The notes under the pieces were generated by a model, which did no database searches, was not told where the DNA came from, and saw nothing but the letters and a program-made list of their open reading frames with translations. The translations under genes were made by a program, and so were the position numbers. 59,936 bases of DNA from Lachnospiraceae bacterium (lineage in GTDB: Bacteria; Bacillota; Clostridia; Lachnospirales; Lachnospiraceae). The stretch spans positions 1 through 59,936 of the forward strand of contig JAFUPV010000061.1 of NCBI GenBank assembly GCA_017472605.1, given 5' to 3'. Numbering within the stretch: the stretch's first letter is position 1; every line of letters starts with the position of its first letter. Of this stretch, positions 5,120 through 59,247 are shown in pieces.

Positions 5120-6018
5120 AAGGCCGTTTTATACTGGGTGGGAGTAATCCCTTCTGATTGCTTAAACACCTTCATAAAATATTTTTCATCCGAGAAGCCG
5201 CAGGAATATGCGGCTTCTTTGATTGTCAGATCATAGTTGGTAAGAAGTGTTTTTGCAGCGCGGATGCGAAGCCGGTTTGTATATCGTGTGATCGAGATTC
5301 CCGTTGACTTTCTAAACAGGGAAGACAGGTAGTCTGCCTGATAACCGAAGGTTTCGGCCAGCAGGGAAACGGAAAAGGGCTGGTAATAATTTGCCTTGAT
5401 CCATTCCATAACGGAGGCGACCACAGCAGGAAGACAGCCGGAGCCGATTTTCTGGTGCTGCGTTTTCTCTCTGGATAATTCCATCAGCAGCAGACTGAGC
5501 GCGCAGTTTAACATGGGAGTGGGAACGGGCGGATCTTCGAAAGAAAGATCCATCAGCTGGCGAAACAGAAGTGAGACTCTTCCGGAGGAAACAATCGAAC
5601 CGAATTCCGGAAAACAGCAGGTGAAAGAGCCGGAAACCGGAGTGAGATTCGCCTTGGTTTGTGACTTTGCGGAGTCCTGAATGCAGTCTGCTTCGGTCTG
5701 CTCAGGGTTACCGGCAGAAGGGAGAGCGGGCACTGCCGAAAAGTGTACCCACAGATATGAGAGTCTGCCCTCTGATTCACGGTGACCATAGTGTTCTTCT
5801 CCGGCTTTCAGCAGAAGATACTGTCCTGCAGAGACGGAATGAGGGACATGATTTGCCGTCAGGTGCAGTGTTCCTTCTGTAACAAGGATCAGAACATCAA
5901 AGGCAAAGGTGCGGCGATGATGGAGAAATCCTCCAAGACTGATCAGCTGACCGCAGACATCGAAGCGGAGCGGCTGTTCCGTCTGCCAGGTAAATGTTCG
6001 TGGTGCATGTTCCTTCAT
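5092..6018 (-). CDS. AraC-family transcriptional regulator
   Basis: A 308-residue one-component sugar-responsive regulator. The N-terminal cupin-like sensor is at about 20-100 (FDVLILVTEGTLHLTA, then a GEEHYGH motif). The C-terminal double helix-turn-helix is at about 205-300, ending in CGFSDEKYFMKVFKQSEGIT, the usual AraC signature. The start at 6018 follows AGAAAGGA at good spacing. The longer open frame upstream reads through a 14-bp tandem repeat and is not coding. It is convergent with GH127 and divergent from the phosphohexomutase, so it probably controls the arabinoside genes. Confidence 0.87.
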   Translation of the reverse strand: MKEHAPRTFTWQTEQPLRFDVCGQLISLGGFLHHRRTFAFDVLILVTEGTLHLTANHVPHSVSAGQYLLLKAGEEHYGHRESEGRLSYLWVHFSAVPALPSAGNPEQTEADCIQDSAKSQTKANLTPVSGSFTCCFPEFGSIVSSGRVSLLFRQLMDLSFEDPPVPTPMLNCALSLLLMELSREKTQHQKIGSGCLPAVVASVMEWIKANYYQPFSVSLLAETFGYQADYLSSLFRKSTGISITRYTNRLRIRAAKTLLTNYDLTIKEAAYSCGFSDEKYFMKVFKQSEGITPTQYKTAFYSLSLLVK

Positions 6019-6515: not shown

Positions 6516-8198
6516 ATGTACATGGAAGACTATAAGCGCTGGTTGGAAGCGGATCTGGAAGACGCGGATTTAAAGGCTGAGCTGGAAACGGTTGCCGGAA
6601 ACGAGGAGGAGATCAAAGATCGTTTCGCAGTTGCCCTGAAGTTTGGTACGGCTGGTCTGCGCGGCGTTCTGGGCGCAGGTTCCAACCGCATGAATATTTA
6701 TGTTGTTCGTCAGGCAACTCAGGGTCTGGCTAACTGGGTAAAGACTCAGGGCGGAAATCAGCTGGTAGCGATCAGCTACGACAGCCGCATCAAGAGTGAT
6801 GTGTTTGCAAAGACTGCTGCCTGCGTTCTGGCGGCAAACGGAATCAAGGTTCGCATCTACGATGCGCTGATGCCGGTTCCGGCACTGAGCTTTGCAACCC
6901 GTTACTACGAGGCAAATGCAGGAATCATGGTTACCGCGTCCCACAACCCGGCCAAGTACAATGGTTACAAGGCTTACGGTCCGGACGGATGCCAGATGAC
7001 CGATGAGGCAGCTGATATCGTGTACGCGGAGATCCAGAAGACGGATATTCTGACCGGCGCGAAGATGATGAGTTTTGAAGAGGGTATGGAAGCTGGTCTG
7101 ATCCAGTATGTCGGCGATGACTGTAAGGAAGCGCTTTATGCAGCAATTGAGTCACGCAGCGTTCGTCCTGGTCTGTGCAAGACCGCTGGTCTGAAGCTGG
7201 TTTACTCTCCGTTAAACGGAAGTGGTCTGGTACCGGTTACCCGTGTGCTCAAAGATATCGGTGTGGATGACGTTACCATCGTTCCGGAGCAGCAGTATCC
7301 GGACGGCAACTTCCCGACCTGTCCATATCCGAACCCGGAGATTTTTGAGGCACTGCGCCTTGGCCTGGAGCTGGCAAAATCCTCCGGTGCTGATCTGATG
7401 CTGGCGACTGACCCGGATGCTGACCGTGTTGGTATTGCCGTGAAATGCAAGGATGGCTCCTATGAGCTGTTAACAGGAAATGAGGTTGGTGTTCTTCTTC
7501 TGGATTATATCTGTGCAGGCCGCATCGAGAATGGAACGATGCCGGCAAATCCGGTTGCAGTGAAGTCCATCGTTTCCACGCCTCTGGCAGACGCGGTTGC
7601 TGCAAACTATGGCGTTGAGCTGCGCAGCGTTCTGACTGGATTCAAGTGGATCGGCGATCAGATCGCAGGACTGGAGGCAGCCGGTGAGGTGGAGCGCTTC
7701 ATCTTCGGTTTCGAGGAGAGCTACGGATACCTGGCAGGCTCCTATGTGCGCGATAAGGATGCTGTAATCGGTTCCATGCTGATCTGCGAGATGGCAGCAT
7801 ATTATCGCAGCATCGGTTCTTCCATCAAGGAGCGTCTGGAAGAAATCTATGCAAAATATGGCCGTTACCTGAACAAGGTAGACAGCTTTGAGTTCCCTGG
7901 TCTGTCCGGAATGGATAAAATGACCGCAATTATGAACGATCTGCGCTCCAATCCTCCGAAGGAAATCGGCGGATTTGCAGTCGTTAAGGTAACGGACTAT
8001 AAGAAGCCGGAAGAGACCGGTCTGCCGGCAGCAAATGTTCTGATCTACTCCCTTGAGGGTGGAGCAACCGTTGTTGTTCGTCCGTCCGGCACCGAGCCGA
8101 AGATCAAGACCTACTTTACTACTCTTGGTAAGGATCTGGCTGAGGCAGAGGCGCAGAAGGCGGTGCTGGCTGAGGCGCTGAAGCCGATTCTGGCATAA
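6516..8198 (+). CDS. phospho-sugar mutase (phosphoglucomutase/phosphomannomutase)
   Basis: Interconverts hexose-1- and hexose-6-phosphates, linking sugar catabolism with nucleotide-sugar and polysaccharide synthesis. The 560-residue protein has all four domains of the alpha-D-phosphohexomutase family: the phosphoserine loop TASHNPAKYNG (S142), the metal loop DPDADR (299-304), a GFKWIGDQI/GFEESYGY sugar-binding region, and the C-terminal phosphate-binding RPSGTEPK. The start at 6516 follows AGGACAGGTGA; an in-frame ATG at 6369 lacks a ribosome site and belongs to the leader. It is single-gene transcribed: strong promoter upstream, hairpin downstream. Confidence 0.94.
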   Translation: MYMEDYKRWLEADLEDADLKAELETVAGNEEEIKDRFAVALKFGTAGLRGVLGAGSNRMNIYVVRQATQGLANWVKTQGGNQLVAISYDSRIKSDVFAKTAACVLAANGIKVRIYDALMPVPALSFATRYYEANAGIMVTASHNPAKYNGYKAYGPDGCQMTDEAADIVYAEIQKTDILTGAKMMSFEEGMEAGLIQYVGDDCKEALYAAIESRSVRPGLCKTAGLKLVYSPLNGSGLVPVTRVLKDIGVDDVTIVPEQQYPDGNFPTCPYPNPEIFEALRLGLELAKSSGADLMLATDPDADRVGIAVKCKDGSYELLTGNEVGVLLLDYICAGRIENGTMPANPVAVKSIVSTPLADAVAANYGVELRSVLTGFKWIGDQIAGLEAAGEVERFIFGFEESYGYLAGSYVRDKDAVIGSMLICEMAAYYRSIGSSIKERLEEIYAKYGRYLNKVDSFEFPGLSGMDKMTAIMNDLRSNPPKEIGGFAVVKVTDYKKPEETGLPAANVLIYSLEGGATVVVRPSGTEPKIKTYFTTLGKDLAEAEAQKAVLAEALKPILA

Positions 8199-42767: not shown

Positions 42768-43058
42768 ATGGAACGTCCACATTTCGATCTTGCTGCCAGC
42801 GGACGCAAAATGCGGGATATTCGCAGGGCAAGAAACATTTCGGTCAAACAGGTCATGGAGTATATGGGATTTGAGTCAACTCAGGCCGTGTACAAATGGG
42901 AAAGCGGGAAATGTTATCCCCAGGCAGACAATCTGCTGGCACTGGCAATGTTATATCGGGTAAGCCCAATGGAGCTTTTGGTGGAAGAGGATAGTTTGTC
43001 CTCTTCTTGTTCTTTTTTTAGATGGAGAAATGGCGGAATTTCTTCCGCCATCGCCTAA
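42768..43058 (+). CDS. XRE-family regulator, tail encoded by a terminator
   Basis: 96 residues from ATG 42768 (GGAGAGGAG upstream); ATG 42708 in the same frame is possible but poorly served. One helix-turn-helix domain (SGRKMRDIRRARNIS, QAVYKWESGKCYPQADNLLA, MELLVEED). It is a relative of the xre gene next to rtcB (56721). After LVEED the codons run through an intrinsic terminator (42985-43019) before the stop at 43056. A -10 TACAAT is at 42679-42684. It is probably the regulator of the downstream TROVE gene. Confidence 0.75.
   Translation: MERPHFDLAASGRKMRDIRRARNISVKQVMEYMGFESTQAVYKWESGKCYPQADNLLALAMLYRVSPMELLVEEDSLSSSCSFFRWRNGGISSAIA
42985..43019 (+). terminator. intrinsic terminator inside the xre ORF
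   Basis: Stem AAGAGGA/TCCTCTT, 7-nt loop, then a T-rich run ending in seven T. It lies 37 bp before the stop codon. A second hairpin (ATGGCGGAA/TTCCGCCAT, 43030-43051) follows. Confidence 0.7.
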
Positions 43059-53490: not shown

Positions 53491-54822
53491 ATGTTTTTTA
53501 AGAGAAAAGTATATGATCAGTTGTTGGACTGGAAAGAAAAATATGCTGATAAATATGCAGTATTACTTGAAGGAGCAAGACGAGTTGGCAAATCTACGAT
53601 TGCTGAACAATTCGCTATTAGCGAATATAAATCATATATATTAATTGATTTTTCAAAGGCATCGGCTGAAGAAATGGCATGCTTTGACGATATTAATGAT
53701 TTAGATATGTTTTTTTTGCGTTTGCAGGCAGTGAGAAGGATTGACTTATATGAACATGAATCTGTTATCATTTTTGATGAGGTACAGTTATTTCCGAAAG
53801 CAAGACAGGCAATTAAGCATCTGGTGAAGGATGGAAGATATCATTATATTGAAACAGGTTCTCTAATATCCATTAAGAGGAATGTGAAAAATATATTGAT
53901 TCCATCGGAGGAAATGAAAATTCAAGTGTATCCTATGGATTATGAAGAGTTTTGTGCTGCAACGGGAAATAGCTACTCTTTGTTAGAAAAGATTTATGGG
54001 ATGAAAAAAGGGGTTGGTCAGCAGGTGAACCGTAAACTTATGCGCGACATCAGAATTTATATGGCGGTCGGCGGTATGCCTCAGGCTGTAGAAAGCTATG
54101 TGAATGGTGATAACTTCTCCATGATTGACCAGGTAAAACGACAAATTATTCAATTGTATGAGGACGATTTTAAGAAATTAGATCCGTCGGGAAAGTTGTC
54201 TGCAATTTATCATTCGATTCCAGCACAACTTTCAAAAAACGGAAAGCGATATCGCTTGTCATCTGCAGTTGGAAAAAGAAAAACATCCAAAGATGAAAAA
54301 TTGGTATATGAATTAATTGATTCGAAAACTGTGTTGCCGTCTTACAACTCTACGGATCCAAGAGTAAGTTTATCTCTTTCAAAGGATTTGGATAGCTACA
54401 AATTATATATTGCAGATACCGGTTTATTTATTACTTTAATGTTTATTGACAGACCGGTTGCAGACAATGAAATATATGCGAAGCTTTTATCGGATAAGCT
54501 GCCAGCTAATCTTGGATATTTATATGAAAATTTAATTGCGCAGATGATTACAGCATCCGGGCGAGAATTGTATTATCATACCTGGGAAAAGGAAGGAAGC
54601 ACACATTATTATGAAATTGATTTCCTGATATCTCAGGGAACCAAAGTATCTGCCATTGAAGTAAAATCTTCTGGAACCGGAAAGCATGAATCGCTGACCG
54701 AATTTAGCAAAAAGTATGCGAAACATATCAAAGAAAGTTGTATTCTTTCACAAAAAGATATCGGTAACGAGGGAACGATTAAGAATATCCCTGTTTACTT
54801 AACTCCATTTTTGTGCAAATAG
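53491..54822 (+). CDS. AAA ATPase with DUF4143 nuclease-like domain
   Basis: 443 residues of the common AAA_14/DUF4143 family. Walker A GARRVGKST (about 28-36), Walker B SVIIFDEVQLFP, the family text VYPMDYEEFC and GGMPQAVESYV. The C-terminal part has a PD-(D/E)XK-like core: YEIDFLIS and AIEVKSS. Biological role unknown; such genes are linked with mobile and conflict regions. AGGAGGT precedes the ATG. Confidence 0.9.
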   Translation: MFFKRKVYDQLLDWKEKYADKYAVLLEGARRVGKSTIAEQFAISEYKSYILIDFSKASAEEMACFDDINDLDMFFLRLQAVRRIDLYEHESVIIFDEVQLFPKARQAIKHLVKDGRYHYIETGSLISIKRNVKNILIPSEEMKIQVYPMDYEEFCAATGNSYSLLEKIYGMKKGVGQQVNRKLMRDIRIYMAVGGMPQAVESYVNGDNFSMIDQVKRQIIQLYEDDFKKLDPSGKLSAIYHSIPAQLSKNGKRYRLSSAVGKRKTSKDEKLVYELIDSKTVLPSYNSTDPRVSLSLSKDLDSYKLYIADTGLFITLMFIDRPVADNEIYAKLLSDKLPANLGYLYENLIAQMITASGRELYYHTWEKEGSTHYYEIDFLISQGTKVSAIEVKSSGTGKHESLTEFSKKYAKHIKESCILSQKDIGNEGTIKNIPVYLTPFLCK

Positions 54823-54966
54823 AAAGTATAGATATGTTCTGTTATCGTATATTTATTCATTGACTGGGATGTTGAGTTTTGTTGTAAGGCGCTTACACTG
54901 TTTCTGCTAAACTTATAAGGATTTCTGATATGGAATTTGATTGTCGGCGGCAAATTGTCACCGTAT

Positions 54967-54983
54967 ACTTTCATGATGAAAGT
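54967..54983. promoter_or_regulatory. inverted repeat upstream of the rtcB-unit promoter
   Basis: ACTTTCAT-G-ATGAAAGT, perfect 8-bp arms, 29 bp before the -35 at 55012. Candidate operator. The rest of 54823-55011 shows no gene. Confidence 0.5.
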
Positions 54984-55011
54984 TTTTATATGGTTTATAC
55001 CACAAGTATAA

Positions 55012-55040
55012 TTTACAATCTCAACTTTTTATGCTATGAT
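55012..55040 (+). promoter_or_regulatory. promoter of small ORF / tRNA-rtcB unit
   Basis: TTTACA, 17 bp, TATGAT; a second possible -10 (TATAAT) lies a few bases further. Confidence 0.7.
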
Positions 55041-55095
55041 GACGATATAATTAAGAGAAAAGCGGAACGACACAGGTTCCAGAAAGGAAAAAGAC

Positions 55096-55245
55096 ATGAC
55101 TGCAATGAATCGTTGGTATTGCCTCTATAGTGAAAGTTGTAAATCAGCACATCTCGATGAAAGCGAGCTGGGCTTATGTGTCATGCACTCATCCATAGAT
55201 AAGCATAAACGGGGAAATTGTAGGATTGATACCGGATTGCAGTGA
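55096..55245 (+). CDS. 49-residue Cys/His/Ser-rich small protein or leader peptide
   Basis: AGAAAGGA lies seven bases before ATG 55096. The peptide has five Cys and three His spaced as in small zinc proteins (YCLYSESCKSAH, LCVMH). Residues 8-24 hold 11 Tyr, Ser, Glu, Lys or His, the amino acids carried by the six tRNAs of this unit. It ends 38 bp before a strong terminator that precedes tRNA-Ser. It could be a zinc-binding peptide or a leader peptide for attenuation; neither is proven. Confidence 0.5.
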   Translation: MTAMNRWYCLYSESCKSAHLDESELGLCVMHSSIDKHKRGNCRIDTGLQ

Positions 55246-55283
55246 CAGGACTGCGCGGAAGATCGATGAACATGTTCTTAGCG

Positions 55284-55320
55284 TACCGCTTACCTTGATG
55301 ATGGGTAGGCGGTATTTTTT
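55284..55320 (+). terminator. intrinsic terminator directly before tRNA-Ser/rtcB
   Basis: Stem TACCGCTTACC with GGTAGGCGGTA (one G-T pair), loop of about 9 nt, then TTTTTT. The tRNA gene begins two bases after the T-run and no promoter fits between, so expression must pass this terminator. Confidence 0.85.
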
Positions 55321-55322
55321 AT

Positions 55323-55406
55323 GCAGAGTTGGCTCAACTGGTACAGCATCGGTCTTGAAAACCGACATTCCGAAAGGATATCAGGGTTCGAATCCCTGGC
55401 TTTGCG
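55323..55406 (+). tRNA. tRNA-Ser (anticodon TGA), CCA not encoded
   Basis: 84 nt. Acceptor GCAGAGT/GCTTTGC (7 pairs with two G-T), anticodon stem TCGGT/ACCGA with loop CTTGAAA, a 16-nt variable arm, T stem CAGGG/CCCTG with loop TTCGAAT, discriminator G. The D stem has one C-C mismatch. No CCA follows. It lies 44 bp before rtcB. Confidence 0.85.
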
Positions 55407-55449
55407 CTGTCTGATGCATTTTTATTGATTGGAAGAAAGGAAACAAACC

Positions 55450-56685
55450 ATGTTAGAAATCAAGGGAAAAGTAAATATAGCAATATGCTATGCCTCCGTA
55501 ATCGAGGAGGAAGCAATCGGGCAAATCCGCCGGATGTGCGATTACGAATTTACTGCCGGTTCCAGGGTTAGAATTATGCCGGACGTTCATGCCGGTAAAG
55601 GCTGCACCATCGGAACAACCATGACGGTTATTGATAAGGCGGTTCCAAACGTAGTAGGCGTCGATATTGGCTGTGGAATGTATACGGTGAATCTTGGTAA
55701 TATCGAGATTGATTTTGAGAAACTGGATGAAGCATGCCACTTTGTTCCTTCGGGAATGAATGTATGGCAGGGCAGACAGGAGCATTTTGACCTGCAGCAG
55801 CTTCGTTGTTTCAGGGAACTGAAGGACAGTAAGAGGTTAGAAAGAAGCCTGGGAACCCTGGGCGGTGGTAATCACTTCATCGAAGTGGATCAGGCTGCAG
55901 ACGGCACAAAATATCTTGTTATTCATACCGGCAGCCGTAACCTTGGAAAACAGGTGGCAGAAATCTATCAGAGACTTGCCGTTGATTTGAACCGTGGCAT
56001 GGAAGACTACTTTGAACAGAGGGATGAAATCATCCGCACCTACAAGGAGCAGGGGAGACGAAGTGAAATCCAGGCTGCACTGAAAGAAATTGCAGTGAAA
56101 AAGGCAAATGGCCCCACATCCATTCCGGAAGATCTGTGTTATCTCCATGGTAAATATTTTGAGGACTACCTGGCTGATGTAGAAATCTGCCAGCAGTTTG
56201 CGAAAAGAAACCGTGAAATGATTGCAGAAATCATTCTTGGCAGATGTGGCTTAACAGCGGCAGATGCATTTCATACCATTCATAATTATATTGATACCGG
56301 TGAAATGATATTGAGAAAGGGCGCAATTGCGGCTCACAAAGGAGAAAAAGTGCTGATTCCAATTAACATGAGGGATGGAAGCGTGCTTGCTGTTGGCAAA
56401 GGAAATCCGGAATGGAATTATTCTGCGCCTCATGGTGCCGGAAGAGTGATGTCCAGATCTGGAGCCCGTAAGTCATTGTCATTAGAGGAATACAAAAAGG
56501 AAATGGAGGGAATCTATACAACCTCCGTCAATGAAGATACATTGGACGAAGCTCCTATGGCATATAAGTCTCTGAGCGACATCATTGATGTCATCGGGGA
56601 TTCGGTAGAAGTAATTGAAGTGTTAAAACCTGTTTATAATTTTAAGGCATCTGAGCCGGCGAAGTTTGGAAAAAACATGAGATAA
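55450..56685 (+). CDS. rtcB: RNA-splicing/repair ligase RtcB
   Basis: A 411-residue GTP- and Mn-dependent ligase joining 2',3'-cyclic-phosphate or 3'-phosphate RNA ends to 5'-OH ends, the ends left by anticodon nucleases and RNase toxins. Motifs: MPDVHAGKGCTIGTTM, GVDIGCGMY (Cys and Asp metal ligands), TLGGGNHFIEV, IHTGSRNLG, and SAPHGAGRVMSR, whose H328 should carry GMP. AAAGGAAAC precedes ATG 55450; the frame to 55429 starts without a site. It lies between tRNA-Ser and xre plus five tRNAs in one direction. Confidence 0.95.
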   Translation: MLEIKGKVNIAICYASVIEEEAIGQIRRMCDYEFTAGSRVRIMPDVHAGKGCTIGTTMTVIDKAVPNVVGVDIGCGMYTVNLGNIEIDFEKLDEACHFVPSGMNVWQGRQEHFDLQQLRCFRELKDSKRLERSLGTLGGGNHFIEVDQAADGTKYLVIHTGSRNLGKQVAEIYQRLAVDLNRGMEDYFEQRDEIIRTYKEQGRRSEIQAALKEIAVKKANGPTSIPEDLCYLHGKYFEDYLADVEICQQFAKRNREMIAEIILGRCGLTAADAFHTIHNYIDTGEMILRKGAIAAHKGEKVLIPINMRDGSVLAVGKGNPEWNYSAPHGAGRVMSRSGARKSLSLEEYKKEMEGIYTTSVNEDTLDEAPMAYKSLSDIIDVIGDSVEVIEVLKPVYNFKASEPAKFGKNMR

Positions 56686-56692
56686 TTCCACG

Positions 56693-56708
56693 CCCGGCCT
56701 GTGCCGGG
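56693..56708. other. hairpin between rtcB and xre
   Basis: CCCGGC-CTGT-GCCGGG without T-run, eight bases after the rtcB stop. A possible mRNA processing or stability element. Confidence 0.5.
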
Positions 56709-56720
56709 AAGGAGGAAGTC

Positions 56721-56969
56721 ATGGCGATTCCAACCATAGACATGGTAAGAACAGGCCAGAATATCAATCGCTTAAGAAAGCTGGCAGGGATATCAGTAAA
56801 GGACCTGCAGGATGTGTTTGGCTTTGCGACACCGCAGGCGATTTACAAGTGGCAGCACGGAACCGCATTGCCGACAATCGACAATCTGGTCGTGCTGGCA
56901 TCTGTGCTGGGTGTCAGAATCGATGATATTTTGGTCATGACAGATGTGCAGATCTCTATATCTGCATAA
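56721..56969 (+). CDS. small XRE-family regulator linked to rtcB
   Basis: 82 residues, one helix-turn-helix domain (about 12-70): RLRKLAGISVKDLQDVFG, QAIYKWQHGTALPTIDNLV, DDILVMTD. It resembles the XRE protein next to the TROVE gene (42768). GGAGGAAGTC precedes the ATG. It is cotranscribed with rtcB (35 bp gap) and probably regulates the unit. Confidence 0.88.
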   Translation: MAIPTIDMVRTGQNINRLRKLAGISVKDLQDVFGFATPQAIYKWQHGTALPTIDNLVVLASVLGVRIDDILVMTDVQISISA

Positions 56970-56979
56970 AAATGAATCA

Positions 56980-57001
56980 TGCGGGTCAGCGCTGGCCCGC
57001 A
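56980..57001. other. long hairpin between xre and tRNA array
   Basis: Arms TGCGGG/CCCGCA closing inner arms CAGC/GCTG, almost no loop, no T-run. It lies six bases before tRNA-Lys; a plausible RNase processing site separating mRNA from tRNAs. Confidence 0.55.
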
Positions 57002-57007
57002 GAACAG

Positions 57008-57079
57008 GCTCCATTCACTCAATGGCAGAGTAACCGGCTTTTAACCGGTAGGTTGTGGGTTCGAATCCCATGTGGAGCA
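57008..57079 (+). tRNA. tRNA-Lys (anticodon TTT), CCA not encoded
   Basis: 72 nt. Acceptor GCTCCAT/GTGGAGC, D stem ACTC/GAGT with GG in the loop, anticodon stem ACCGG/CCGGT with loop CTTTTAA, T loop TTCGAAT, discriminator A. Complete fold, though position 9 is C. No CCA. Confidence 0.87.
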
Positions 57080-57082
57080 TAT

Positions 57083-57155
57083 GGCCCCGTAGTCTAAAGG
57101 CCAGGACATCGCCCTTTCAAGGCGAAAGTGCCGGGTTCAAGTCCCGCCGGGGGCA
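57083..57155 (+). tRNA. tRNA-Glu (anticodon TTC), mismatched stems
   Basis: 73 nt. Anticodon stem TCGCC/GGCGA with loop CTTTCAA. The acceptor GGCCCCG/CGGGGGC has a G-G mismatch at pair 2-71, and the T stem CCGGG/CCCGC a C-C mismatch. T loop TTCAAGT. No CCA. Confidence 0.82.
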
Positions 57156-57159
57156 CTAT

Positions 57160-57233
57160 GGTGACGGCAGCTCAAGCAACAGAGCGGTGGATTGTGATTC
57201 CACCGGCTGCGCGCTCGAGTCGCGTTGGGCACC
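57160..57233 (+). tRNA. tRNA-His (anticodon GTG), degenerate
   Basis: The His identity pair G-1:C73 is kept and the anticodon arm GTGGA/TCCAC with loop TTGTGAT is intact. But two acceptor pairs are mismatched (4-69, 6-67), the D loop lacks the usual GG, base 8 is C, and the T loop starts C (CTCGAGT) instead of T. No CCA. Confidence 0.78.
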
Positions 57234-57237
57234 CTAT

Positions 57238-57321
57238 GAGTAGGTAAACCGTAATTGGCAGCGGGCCAGACTGTAAATCTGGTGCCTTCGGGTTCTGTTG
57301 GTTCAAGTCCAATCCTGCCCA
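57238..57321 (+). tRNA. tRNA-Tyr (anticodon GTA)
   Basis: 84 nt. Anticodon stem CCAGA/TCTGG with loop CTGTAAA, long variable arm, T stem GTTGG/CCAAT with loop TTCAAGT, discriminator A. The acceptor has one mismatch (A2-C71) and the D stem is only about 3 bp. No CCA. Confidence 0.82.
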
Positions 57322-57326
57322 CTTTT

Positions 57327-57410
57327 GTTTGCGTGTCGAGAGGTCGATGGTGCTTCCCTGCTAAGGAAGTGTGCCAAAAGGCACCGAAGGTTCGAATCCT
57401 TCCGCAAACG
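57327..57410 (+). tRNA. tRNA-Ser (anticodon GCT)
   Basis: 84 nt. Perfect acceptor GTTTGCG/CGCAAAC, anticodon stem CTTCC/GGAAG with loop CTGCTAA, variable arm GTGCC-AAAA-GGCAC, T loop TTCGAAT, discriminator G. The D arm is weak. No CCA. Confidence 0.85.
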
Positions 57411-57469
57411 TTGTAGAAGCGTACGAATTGAACGTGGTATTGTGTCAAGATTTAGTAGAAAATAAAATG

Positions 57470-57505
57470 AGAGGTTATGCCAGCTAGCTGCCGGCAGTTT
57501 CTCTT
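57470..57505 (+). terminator. possible terminator after tRNA array
   Basis: Nested GAGA/TCTC and TGCC/GGCA pairings followed by CTTCC and a later T-rich stretch. Weak. Confidence 0.3.
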
Positions 57506-57547
57506 CCTCCATATATAATTTTTTGTAAGTTATTTTTCTTCATACAC

Positions 57548-57576
57548 TTGTAATATGATGAAAAATCGTATACAAT
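57548..57576 (+). promoter_or_regulatory. promoter of GIY-YIG/DUF2075 gene
   Basis: TTGTAA, 17 bp, TACAAT. A small hairpin CGGG-AATG-CCCG with ATTTTCTTT after it (57597-57620) may attenuate. Confidence 0.6.
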
Positions 57577-57666
57577 TGGTGATAGAAGCTGCAAAGACGG
57601 GAATGCCCGGATTTTCTTTAAATAAAAGAACCGGTATCGTGATAGAATCATAAGGATGGATAAGAG

Positions 57667-59247
57667 ATGTTTGAAATTCGCAGGGAAAAATTTTGGCAGG
57701 ATACATACGGAAACGCAGAATATCTGAATAATTGGCCAATGGTATATATTCTGGAAAACGGAAAGAAGGCATATGTAGGTCAGAGCAATAATGTCCAGCG
57801 ACGAATGGCACAACATAAAATGGCAACAGGGAAGCAGGAATTTACGGATGTTCATTTTATTTATTCGGACAAATTCAATCAGTCTGCCACGTTTGACTAC
57901 GAATCGAGGCTTATTAGCTTAATGGCTGCGGATGAGAAATTTTGTATCACCAATGCGAATGCTGGCGTTGTTGGAGCAAATTATTATAAGAAAAATGAGT
58001 ATGATAATGATTTTCGAGAGCTTTGGAGGCGGTTGCAGGAACAGCAGCTGGTAAAGCATTCCATTGAGGAATTGGAGCACTCCGATTTGTTTAAATATTC
58101 TCCATTCAAGAAGCTCAGTGATGATCAAAGGAATGTTGTCAGGATGATTATGCAAAGTTTACGAATCAGTAAAGAGCAGAGAATCATAATCAATGGCATG
58201 CCTGGAAGTGGAAAGACAGTAATTGCAGTCTATTTATTTAAGCTGTTCCGTGATACGCCGGAGTATGCAGATAAAAAAATTGCGTTGGTGATTCCGCAAA
58301 CATCATTAAGAAAGACAATAAAGGATTTATTTAAAAATCTGCATGGCCTGGCAGTCGGTGATGTGATTGGCCCCAACGAAGTAGCGCAGCAAACGTATGA
58401 TATTCTGTTGGTGGATGAGGCTCATAGGCTAAAGCAGCGGAAGAATCTTTCCAGCTACATGTTTTATGATGAATGCTGCAGGAAAATGGGGCTGCCAAAA
58501 GATGCAACGCAATTGGATTGGGTCATGGAACAATCGAAATGTACAATTCTATTCTATGATCAGAACCAGGTAGTTGGTCCATCCGGAATCGAAATGGAAC
58601 AGCTGAATGCAAGCATTTTGCAATCAAGATATTCCAGGATGTATACCTATTACCAGCTGTTGTCACAGATGCGCTGTAAGGGCGGAACCGAATATATCAA
58701 TTATGTGAAAGATTTGCTGCATAACAATGTGAAGAATCGAGTACGTTTCGAGGCTTATGAATTCAGGCTGGTTGATGCATTTGGTAAGTTTGAGGAACTA
58801 TATCGCCGAAAGCTAATGAGTGATTGTTTAACAAGAATGGTTTCGGGATACGCCTGGGAATGGAAGAGTAAGAATGATTCCTTAGCGACAGATATCGTGA
58901 TTGATAACGTAGGGAAAAGATGGAATTCGACGTTGGCAAACTGGGTGCATTCGCCCAAGGCGACAGAGGAAGTTGGCTGTATCCATTCGATCCAGGGGTA
59001 TGACTTGGATTATGGATTTGTTATCTTGGGGAATGATATTAAGTACGACAAAGATCGTAACGAAGTGATTGTTGATAGAGTTTCTTATTTTGATCGCTAT
59101 GGGAAAATTGGGGCGAGTGATAGCCAGCTAAAGGAATTTATCCTTAATGTCTATTATGTACTTATGACGCGCGGAATCAAGGGAACCTATGTCTATGTTT
59201 GTGATGATAATTTGAGAGAATATATGCGGAAATATATGGATTCGTGA
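57667..59247 (+). CDS. GIY-YIG nuclease fused to DUF2075 P-loop helicase/ATPase
   Basis: 526 residues. The N-terminal GIY-YIG-like domain (about 18-105) shows WPMVYILENGKKAYVGQSNN and later ESRLISLM. The DUF2075/superfamily 1-like part has Walker A INGMPGSGKTV (about 177-187), Walker B ILLVDEAHRL, and QGYDLDYGFVILGNDI and LMTRGIKGTYVY near the end. This fusion occurs in defence and mobile regions and would cut and translocate nucleic acid. It starts after its own promoter, 256 bp behind the tRNA array. Confidence 0.88.
   Translation: MFEIRREKFWQDTYGNAEYLNNWPMVYILENGKKAYVGQSNNVQRRMAQHKMATGKQEFTDVHFIYSDKFNQSATFDYESRLISLMAADEKFCITNANAGVVGANYYKKNEYDNDFRELWRRLQEQQLVKHSIEELEHSDLFKYSPFKKLSDDQRNVVRMIMQSLRISKEQRIIINGMPGSGKTVIAVYLFKLFRDTPEYADKKIALVIPQTSLRKTIKDLFKNLHGLAVGDVIGPNEVAQQTYDILLVDEAHRLKQRKNLSSYMFYDECCRKMGLPKDATQLDWVMEQSKCTILFYDQNQVVGPSGIEMEQLNASILQSRYSRMYTYYQLLSQMRCKGGTEYINYVKDLLHNNVKNRVRFEAYEFRLVDAFGKFEELYRRKLMSDCLTRMVSGYAWEWKSKNDSLATDIVIDNVGKRWNSTLANWVHSPKATEEVGCIHSIQGYDLDYGFVILGNDIKYDKDRNEVIVDRVSYFDRYGKIGASDSQLKEFILNVYYVLMTRGIKGTYVYVCDDNLREYMRKYMDS

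Follow-up and report, generated by a model that had tools for sequence, protein, structure and literature searches.

The stretch of DNA considered here, a contig of 59,936 nucleotides (JAFUPV010000061.1, assembly GCA_017472605.1) from a bacterium of the family Lachnospiraceae, is referred to at its full length as the window. It contains an apparent operon in which a gene for tRNA-Ser(UGA) is followed on the same strand by rtcB, encoding an RNA ligase, by a small xre gene, and by genes for tRNA-Lys, tRNA-Glu, tRNA-His, tRNA-Tyr and tRNA-Ser(GCU), with spacers of 3 to about 42 nucleotides. An earlier note, made from the sequence alone, had described this arrangement as a possible self-contained unit for the repair and replacement of tRNAs; it overlooked, however, a leader region upstream of the first tRNA gene (Table 1), which is tied to xre and to the tRNAs more closely than rtcB is. 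Judging from comparisons of such leaders in related bacteria, we consider it quite probable that the operon is under the control of a ribosome-mediated transcription attenuator, which would govern the restoration of tRNAs.

The six tRNA genes were confirmed, five by ARAGORN and all six by the Rfam model RF00005; tRNA-His(GTG) was missed by ARAGORN and is marginal, with 29.3 bits versus a gathering score of 29. The absence of an encoded CCA tail from all six, which the earlier note had mentioned, is real and appears to be ordinary for the host, since its 48 other tRNA genes, to judge from their printed sequences, share it. The same note had asked whether these could simply be the only chromosomal genes for the tRNAs concerned. 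This does not hold for five of the six anticodons, which are duplicated elsewhere in the genome; a second Ser-GCT gene was not found in the assembly (75 contigs, 95% complete), and the array copy is perhaps the sole one. The Pfam domain score of the RtcB protein was 194 bits (curated cut-off 27), and the active-site stretch HGAGRVxSR, with its histidine, was confirmed by alignment to two RtcB chains, 4dwr_B and 1uc2_A (PH1602). The NCBIfam equivalog cut-offs were not reached by the RtcB protein of the window. Another Xre-like open reading frame (ORF), 36% identical to the Xre of the unit, is located at 42768-42992.

Table 1. Features of the leader region and of the operon in the window.
Feature	Positions	Strand	Basis or remark
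Inverted repeat TTATAC-N5-GTATAA, abutting the -35 hexamer; candidate Xre operator	54995..55011	+	aligned leaders
Predicted promoter TTTACA, 17 nucleotides, TATGAT, with TG before the second hexamer	55012..55040	+	10/12 matches, alignment
5' hairpin, upstream of the Shine-Dalgarno sequence	55064..55080	+	folding, alignment
Leader ORF, 49 codons, MTAMNRWYCLYSESCKSAHLDESELGLCVMHSSIDKHKRGNCRIDTGLQ	55096..55245	+	codons 8-24 include cognates for all six array tRNAs
Putative antiterminator segment AGATAAGC within the leader ORF	55197..55204	+	pairs 7/8 with the terminator 5' arm
Predicted intrinsic terminator, downstream of the leader ORF and ahead of tRNA-Ser(TGA)	55283..55320	+	13 pairs, T tail
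tRNA-Ser(TGA)	55323..55407	+	ARAGORN, Rfam RF00005
rtcB, RNA ligase, 411 amino acids	55450..56685	+	Pfam RtcB
xre, helix-turn-helix protein, 82 amino acids	56721..56969	+	HTH_3 match
tRNA-Lys(TTT)	57008..57079	+	ARAGORN, Rfam RF00005 (63.2 bits)
tRNA-Glu(TTC)	57083..57155 (end at 57156 by ARAGORN)	+	ARAGORN, Rfam RF00005 (51.6 bits)
tRNA-His(GTG), divergent, may be decayed	57161..57233	+	Rfam RF00005 only
tRNA-Tyr(GTA)	57238..57322	+	ARAGORN, Rfam RF00005 (32.1 bits)
tRNA-Ser(GCT)	57327..57410 (57326..57411 by ARAGORN)	+	ARAGORN, Rfam RF00005 (43.7 bits)

Relatives of the window RtcB were encoded at 359 contig loci, of which the best 80 were kept and, together with the window, gave 81 loci. 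The typical leader in these units consists of the inverted repeat at the -35 hexamer, a promoter, a small hairpin, a strong ribosome-binding site, a short ORF (37-55 codons) and a terminator. In an alignment of 49 leaders the half-sites of the inverted repeat for the most part show little or no variation; a recognisable repeat is missing from a minority of leaders. The stem bases of the 5' hairpin vary, yet the pairing is, by eye, preserved in many homologues. A hairpin with a T tail was found 3' of the ORF in 54 of the 55 leaders kept versus 8 of 165 control windows inside rtcB; for this comparison it should be considered that leaders had to show an arm-like sequence in order to be kept, that two of 57 ORF calls (L126, L136) were dropped for lack of a terminator arm and also fail the hairpin rule, and that the arm pattern was widened by hand so that one locus (L072) stayed in. 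A leader ORF with a ribosome-binding site ahead of a predicted intrinsic terminator, as in known attenuators, is thus present. When positions 54000-58500 were searched against Rfam, only tRNA matches reached the gathering score and the leader itself was unmatched; control of the operon by a T-box was rejected, as none appeared among the matches up to E 1. At one further locus (L378, G115:C6:131667-131721) an inverted repeat and promoter of similar kind stand directly before a gene that reads, by eye, as tRNA-Arg(ACG), with no intervening leader ORF.

Co-occurrence was counted for the 75 of the 81 loci, window included, with at least 500 nucleotides on each side. The xre gene is present in 54 of 55 loci with the leader versus 1 of 20 without it (p=1.4e-15), and tRNAs in 38 of 55 versus 1 of 20 (p=5e-7); one locus only (L115) has the leader without an xre of this kind. 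Three loci possess a second rtcB after the first one, 41-42% identical to that of the window (L084:7554-8663, L088:7778-8905, L097:7799-8920), which in L084 and L097 is placed after xre. A phage origin of the unit was also considered and discarded: the three closest RtcB matches in a phage collection are unverified faecal scaffolds, whose leader peptides include one identical to that of the bacterial locus L105 and another identical to that of L419. One group of loci on viral contigs was scanned for tRNAs and kept out of further analysis.

The leader codons correspond to the tRNAs encoded downstream. In the window, codons for Tyr occur at positions 8 and 11 of the leader ORF, for Ser (AGY) at 12, 14 and 23, for Glu at 13, 22 and 24, for Lys at 16, for Ser (TCA) at 17 and for His at 19. 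Among stretches of equal kind taken from the long ORFs of the window, codons for all six tRNAs were present in 109 of 4000 stretches of 31 codons and in 24 of 6870 of 17 codons, the latter span having been chosen after inspection of the leader. For the comparison across loci, codons 2-32 of each leader were treated as the putative sensor, and cognate anticodons were read by simple wobble rules. A cognate codon in the own leader was found for 96.4% of 138 array tRNAs, versus 81.7±2.7% with leaders swapped between loci, and none of 2000 permutations reached the true value. The result was the same in kind with the tRNAs called by ARAGORN only (113 of 119 versus 81.6±2.9%; 0 of 5000 permutations), and with one leader per rtcB cluster, both for 18 clusters (0.961 of 77 tRNAs versus 0.799; 0 of 5000) and for 11 clusters (0.942 of 52 versus 0.762; 0 of 5000). 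Windows of equal size within rtcB gave 0.72 (highest 0.81), the other two frames of the leader 0.59 and 0.66, and the 59 non-array tRNAs of one completely sequenced relative 0.57. Codons cognate to the products of the operon, a further property of attenuators, are therefore present in the leaders.

A further set, found by means of xre or of a model of the promoter region, comprised 13 pairs of leader and array from ten genomes of the same family. Here 49 of 50 tRNAs had a cognate codon in the own leader, versus a fraction of 0.722±0.056 with swapped leaders, and the density of cognate codons was 0.280 versus 0.166±0.020 (0 of 20000 permutations in both cases); this set was not blind, several leaders having been inspected before scoring. 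One pair (G015) was joined by inference from two contigs, and the leaders of G063 and of one unit (d) of G001 were placed by eye. Left out were L406 as a duplicate of L086, the leaders without tRNAs (L402, L404, L413, L414, L416, L419, L420), L415, where the script found neither leader nor tRNA, the unassigned weak hits of L409 and L417, and, for want of an identified leader, a group of Asn, Ile, Gly and Met tRNAs in L418 as well as a single Pro tRNA in L421.

Units within one genome are informative. In a congener of the window bacterium, a leader rich in Leu, Ser and Tyr (..LSSSYVLYLSLLLYGS..) precedes one Tyr, four Leu and two Ser tRNAs; a second (..KQHRHEQKRFWFCQERQ..), in which CAG occurs three times beside a codon for Trp, precedes xre and tRNAs for Trp and Gln; and a third precedes xre and tRNAs for Asp, Pro and Ile. 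When the three leaders were swapped, the match dropped in five of six cases. Another genome contains a leader rich in Arg and His before xre, two Arg tRNAs and one His tRNA, and a leader rich in Phe, Gln, Ser, Cys and Lys, with an ATA codon, before tRNAs for Phe, Ile-TAT, Ser, Lys and Cys, xre and two Gln tRNAs. The genome of the window itself contains, on contig C72:49877-52077 (L315, L344), a paralogous promoter, leader and terminator before asnS, identified as an asparagine-tRNA ligase equivalog, and then a second xre; a similar inverted repeat precedes this pair as well. The asnS leader has six Asn in codons 2-32; 55 other leaders average 1.36 and never exceed 3. The congener also possesses a tRNA island (L418, G001:C175) with 18 tRNAs according to ARAGORN, some Leu tRNAs of only about 75 nucleotides, three leaders, two xre genes and, beside the array, a DUF2828 gene.

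Several of these leader, xre and tRNA units have no relative of the window rtcB within the 3-8 kb fetched, so that rtcB would be one cargo of the unit and not its core. On balance we favour the view that the Lachnospiraceae possess a family of tRNA-sensing operons, in which the leader would call the roll, codon by codon, of the tRNAs encoded downstream and refill the set upon stalling of the ribosome, with RtcB, asparaginyl-tRNA synthetase and other translation genes as cargo, a dedicated Xre at the promoter, and homeostasis at the level of the single tRNA gene.

An attenuator should also possess an antiterminator which competes with the terminator. The pairing of leader segments with the own terminator 5' arm was compared with that to the arms of other loci, using 20 sliding windows in 31 deduplicated loci. 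The own arm has a clear advantage in only two windows, which overlap each other and cover about codons 29-38 (z -5.2 and -4.5); |z| is at most 2.3 in the remaining 18. The better one, at about codons 32-38 (z -5.2), pairs with its own arm at -9.82 versus -8.19 kcal/mol with swapped arms. Two-sided changes are seen in L064 (ACCAGAU with AUCUGGU), L111 (UCAGGAU with AUCCUGA) and L096 (UAUAAGGCAA with UUGCCUUGUA). Covariation at this one position argues for a competing antiterminator inside the ORF. A pairing of the 5' sequence AAGCGG with the terminator arm was considered and rejected; AGCGG is absent from 20 of 55 leaders, and the windows there gave no strong covariation.

The following mechanism is suggested by these data. 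RNA polymerase would start at the promoter of Table 1 and transcribe the short leader ORF and the terminator. If the early codons are read freely, the ribosome would cover codons 32-38 or thereabouts, the terminator would form, and transcription would stop before the first tRNA gene. If one of the sampled codons finds too little intact charged tRNA, the ribosome would stall early, codons ~32-38 could pair with the 5' arm of the terminator, and by antitermination the polymerase would go on to transcribe tRNA-Ser, rtcB, xre and the remaining tRNA genes. A shortage of a sampled tRNA would thus trigger its own supply, together with that of a ligase able to rejoin cut copies. The inverted repeat at the promoter is probably a binding site of Xre, which would tune the operon, a role proposed because of this repeat and of the co-occurrence of xre with the leader; the position beside the -35 hexamer would allow repression or activation. 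Since extra tRNA is no remedy for a lack of amino acid, loss or damage of tRNA would be the sensible trigger, which is compatible with rtcB as cargo. The leader, the terminator, the covarying antiterminator, the correspondence of codons and tRNAs and the co-occurrence of xre are the sequence basis of this scheme; we infer from them the stalling, the antitermination, the binding of Xre and the action of RtcB on cut tRNAs.

Several observations weigh against it. Leaders and arrays share descent, an effect which permutation by clusters lessens and does not remove. Thirteen of 14 single-tRNA associations are individually not significant, because codons for Glu, Ser, Tyr and Lys are nearly always present in the leaders; the remaining one, for His (codon present in 8 of 9 leaders with an array His tRNA versus 15 of 42 without), has p=0.005, uncorrected for the 14 tests. 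Leu codons were not enriched in the leaders tested. AGY makes up 0.55 of the Ser codons whether or not the array includes Ser-GCT, and 0.50 where there is no array; sensing at the level of isoacceptors, for which Ser and Arg had first seemed significant, was therefore abandoned, the AGY bias being general to these leaders. One swap in the congener exceeds the true leader (7/7 versus 6/7; the other swap gives 3/7). The antiterminator helix of the window itself is short and weak, with 7 of 8 pairs and -6.7 kcal/mol, and is weaker than in most relatives; two windows further upstream have nominal p values of 0.014 and 0.023; duplex energies of the whole ORF compared with shuffles gave no signal (mean z -0.4; values below 0.05 in 3 of 54 loci). 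In tests that preceded the resolution by position, swapped arms were surpassed by the rtcB and reversed-ORF controls as well (p=0.004 and 0.008), probably due to shared base composition. No tRNA was detected in 17 of the 55 leader loci, which fits turnover, yet the leader can exist with rtcB alone. Finally, truncations or insertions affect several of the array tRNAs of relatives.

The alternative with the best standing, which we regard as possible though not probable, is an island responding to phages or toxins, which would repair and replace tRNAs cut by anticodon nucleases and whose tRNA set would be dictated by the targets of the toxins. RtcB seals breaks left by such nucleases. The gene immediately upstream of the unit (53491-54822), an AAA_14/DUF4143 ATPase, matches the defence candidate PDC-S01 (E 1.5e-90). 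Phage tRNAs have been proposed to offset host tRNases (PMC10264068). The composition of the arrays also points in this direction: tRNAs or remnants of them are situated beside rtcB or xre in 40 of the 81 loci, and of the 142 tRNAs in total, 89 are Glu-TTC (26), Lys-TTT (19), Tyr-GTA (19), Ser-GCT (16) and His-GTG (9), followed by Leu (12), Glu-CTC (9), Arg-ACG (8) and the rarer Gln, Trp, Asp, other Ser, Cys, Asn, Met, Phe and others. These assignments were made by hand and take in truncated and insertion-bearing tRNAs; one Arg(ccg) of ARAGORN was relabelled Ser-GCT on account of its loop and of a long variable arm, and only tRNAs within about 1 kb upstream and 2 kb downstream of rtcB were counted, so that the displaced arrays of L061 and L062 are not included. 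Ala, Gly, Val, Pro, Thr and Ile account for none of the 142, versus 20 of 59 non-array tRNAs in the complete genome of one relative; this class was defined post hoc and the loci share descent, so that very small binomial values should not be taken at face value.

The claim of the earlier note that the array copies the usual victims of anticodon nucleases fits these rtcB-linked arrays. It does not extend to arrays linked to xre without rtcB, which include Pro-TGG, Ile-GAT, Ile-TAT and Gly, and units with Pro, Ile and Asp; a rule that the six absent amino acids never occur in arrays is broken there. Also, the anticodon loops of the array tRNAs for Lys, Tyr and Ser-TGA are, by eye, those of the host genes (those of Glu and His are different, and no host gene was found with which to compare Ser-GCT, leaving five comparable tRNAs), which speaks against decoys escaping cleavage, and the leader would stall under amino-acid starvation or antibiotics as well. 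The codon set of the leader predicts the array better than the list of nuclease victims does. The notion of a repair and replacement unit survives in part: the unit recurs, its tRNA sets are non-random, and a ligase and extra tRNAs would stand under an apparent sensor of tRNA shortage, with repair as one cargo only. Loci of rtcB without an array, which the note had named as contrary evidence together with random tRNA sets, do exist (19 of 20 leaderless and the 17 leader loci mentioned); the sets that are present are not random.

An attenuator responding to translation stress in general, induced by any slow translation and matching the array through codon composition only, is unlikely. It has a precedent in the bmrB leader of Bacillus subtilis and the antibiotic-induced bmrCD (PMC4191407), but own leaders outscore swapped ones in both sets, the asnS leader is rich in Asn, and units of the same genome differ mostly in the expected direction. 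A reading of the tRNAs as accumulated debris, or as genes with which a mobile element adds to the codon supply, is very improbable; truncated and insertion-bearing tRNAs, and sequences 3' of the array which differ among the printed loci, would be in accordance with it, and against it are the non-random sets tied to leader codons and the lack of tRNAs in nearly all leaderless rtcB loci. Least probable of all is a toxin-antitoxin pair or functional peptide formed by the small ORF and Xre with the tRNAs as passengers, since, although the two are almost always together and Xre proteins are common as antitoxins, the peptide is highly variable while codon identity tracks the array, the terminator and covarying antiterminator are left unexplained, and L115 has the leader without this xre.

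Palindromic inserts of about 50 nucleotides were noticed inside array tRNAs, in the anticodon loop, variable arm or T-arm, with both ends of the tRNA remaining (L105:7560-7683, L058:~5820-5960, L134:3232-3416, L059:3097-3217, L089:5839-5960, L104:5844-5960 and 7547-7660). The motif CGAAGCGGAGCGNAG occurs in several of these inserts in both orientations (forward in L058, L105 and L134, reverse in L089, L104 and L114), and 18 exact copies are present genome-wide in one relative. The CGAAGCGGAGCGNAG-bearing inserts were for these reasons read as a dispersed palindromic element and not as tRNA introns spliced by RtcB, a reading that covers them and not the inserts of L130 and L061. Downstream of the array in the window, at 57667-59247, lies a gene in which a Schlafen group 3 helicase domain and a GIY-YIG domain are fused.

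Bacterial tRNA genes are usually regarded as constitutive or controlled by growth rate. If the attenuator is real, it would provide a direct, multiplexed feedback on the availability of tRNAs, coupled to RNA repair. The recovery of bacteria after tRNA cleavage, and the role of RtcB in bacteria without spliced tRNAs, would become accessible to experiments, and the leaders could report which tRNA is depleted in gut bacteria.

The component parts are of known kinds, namely an attenuator, an RtcB repair operon and a stress-induced tRNA array. The attenuators of amino-acid operons, such as trp of Escherichia coli and the his and pheST leaders, likewise have a leader ORF with regulatory codons, an antiterminator and an intrinsic terminator; the leader of the window differs in that it would sample several amino acids at once and control the tRNAs themselves and an RNA ligase. 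In the RtcB-Rsr-Y RNA repair operon of Salmonella and Deinococcus, rtcB also encodes a repair ligase and is induced by damaged tRNA; the unit of the window has tRNA genes and a putative attenuator instead of the TROVE protein, and a link to that operon was dismissed, the Rsr family (TROVE, PF05731) being found in none of 41 genomes, including that of the window. Leader peptides matching downstream tRNA sets, or an rtcB-xre-tRNA unit, were not found described in the portion of the literature searched, which took in few subscription journals or preprints. The tRNA arrays of T4 and mycobacteriophages, to which T4 adds an RNA ligase, would likewise act against a loss of tRNAs (PMC10264068). The present unit is bacterial, and the altered anticodon loops of nuclease-evading phage tRNAs are not seen in three of its five comparable tRNAs. 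The trn operon of Anabaena is a stress-induced array of 26 tRNAs on a plasmid, with rtcB at a separate chromosomal locus in the same TrcR regulon (PMC10272220); it is governed by a DNA-binding repressor, which is apparently degraded, and the available text of that study mentions no leader ORF. A further comparison is with bmrB (PMC4191407), which answers antibiotics, controls a multidrug transporter and has its predicted terminator inside the ORF, and which shares with the leader of the window an ORF of about 50 codons (53 residues in bmrB), a terminator, an anti-terminator and a Gram-positive host, the downstream bmrCD being induced by ribosome-targeting antibiotics.

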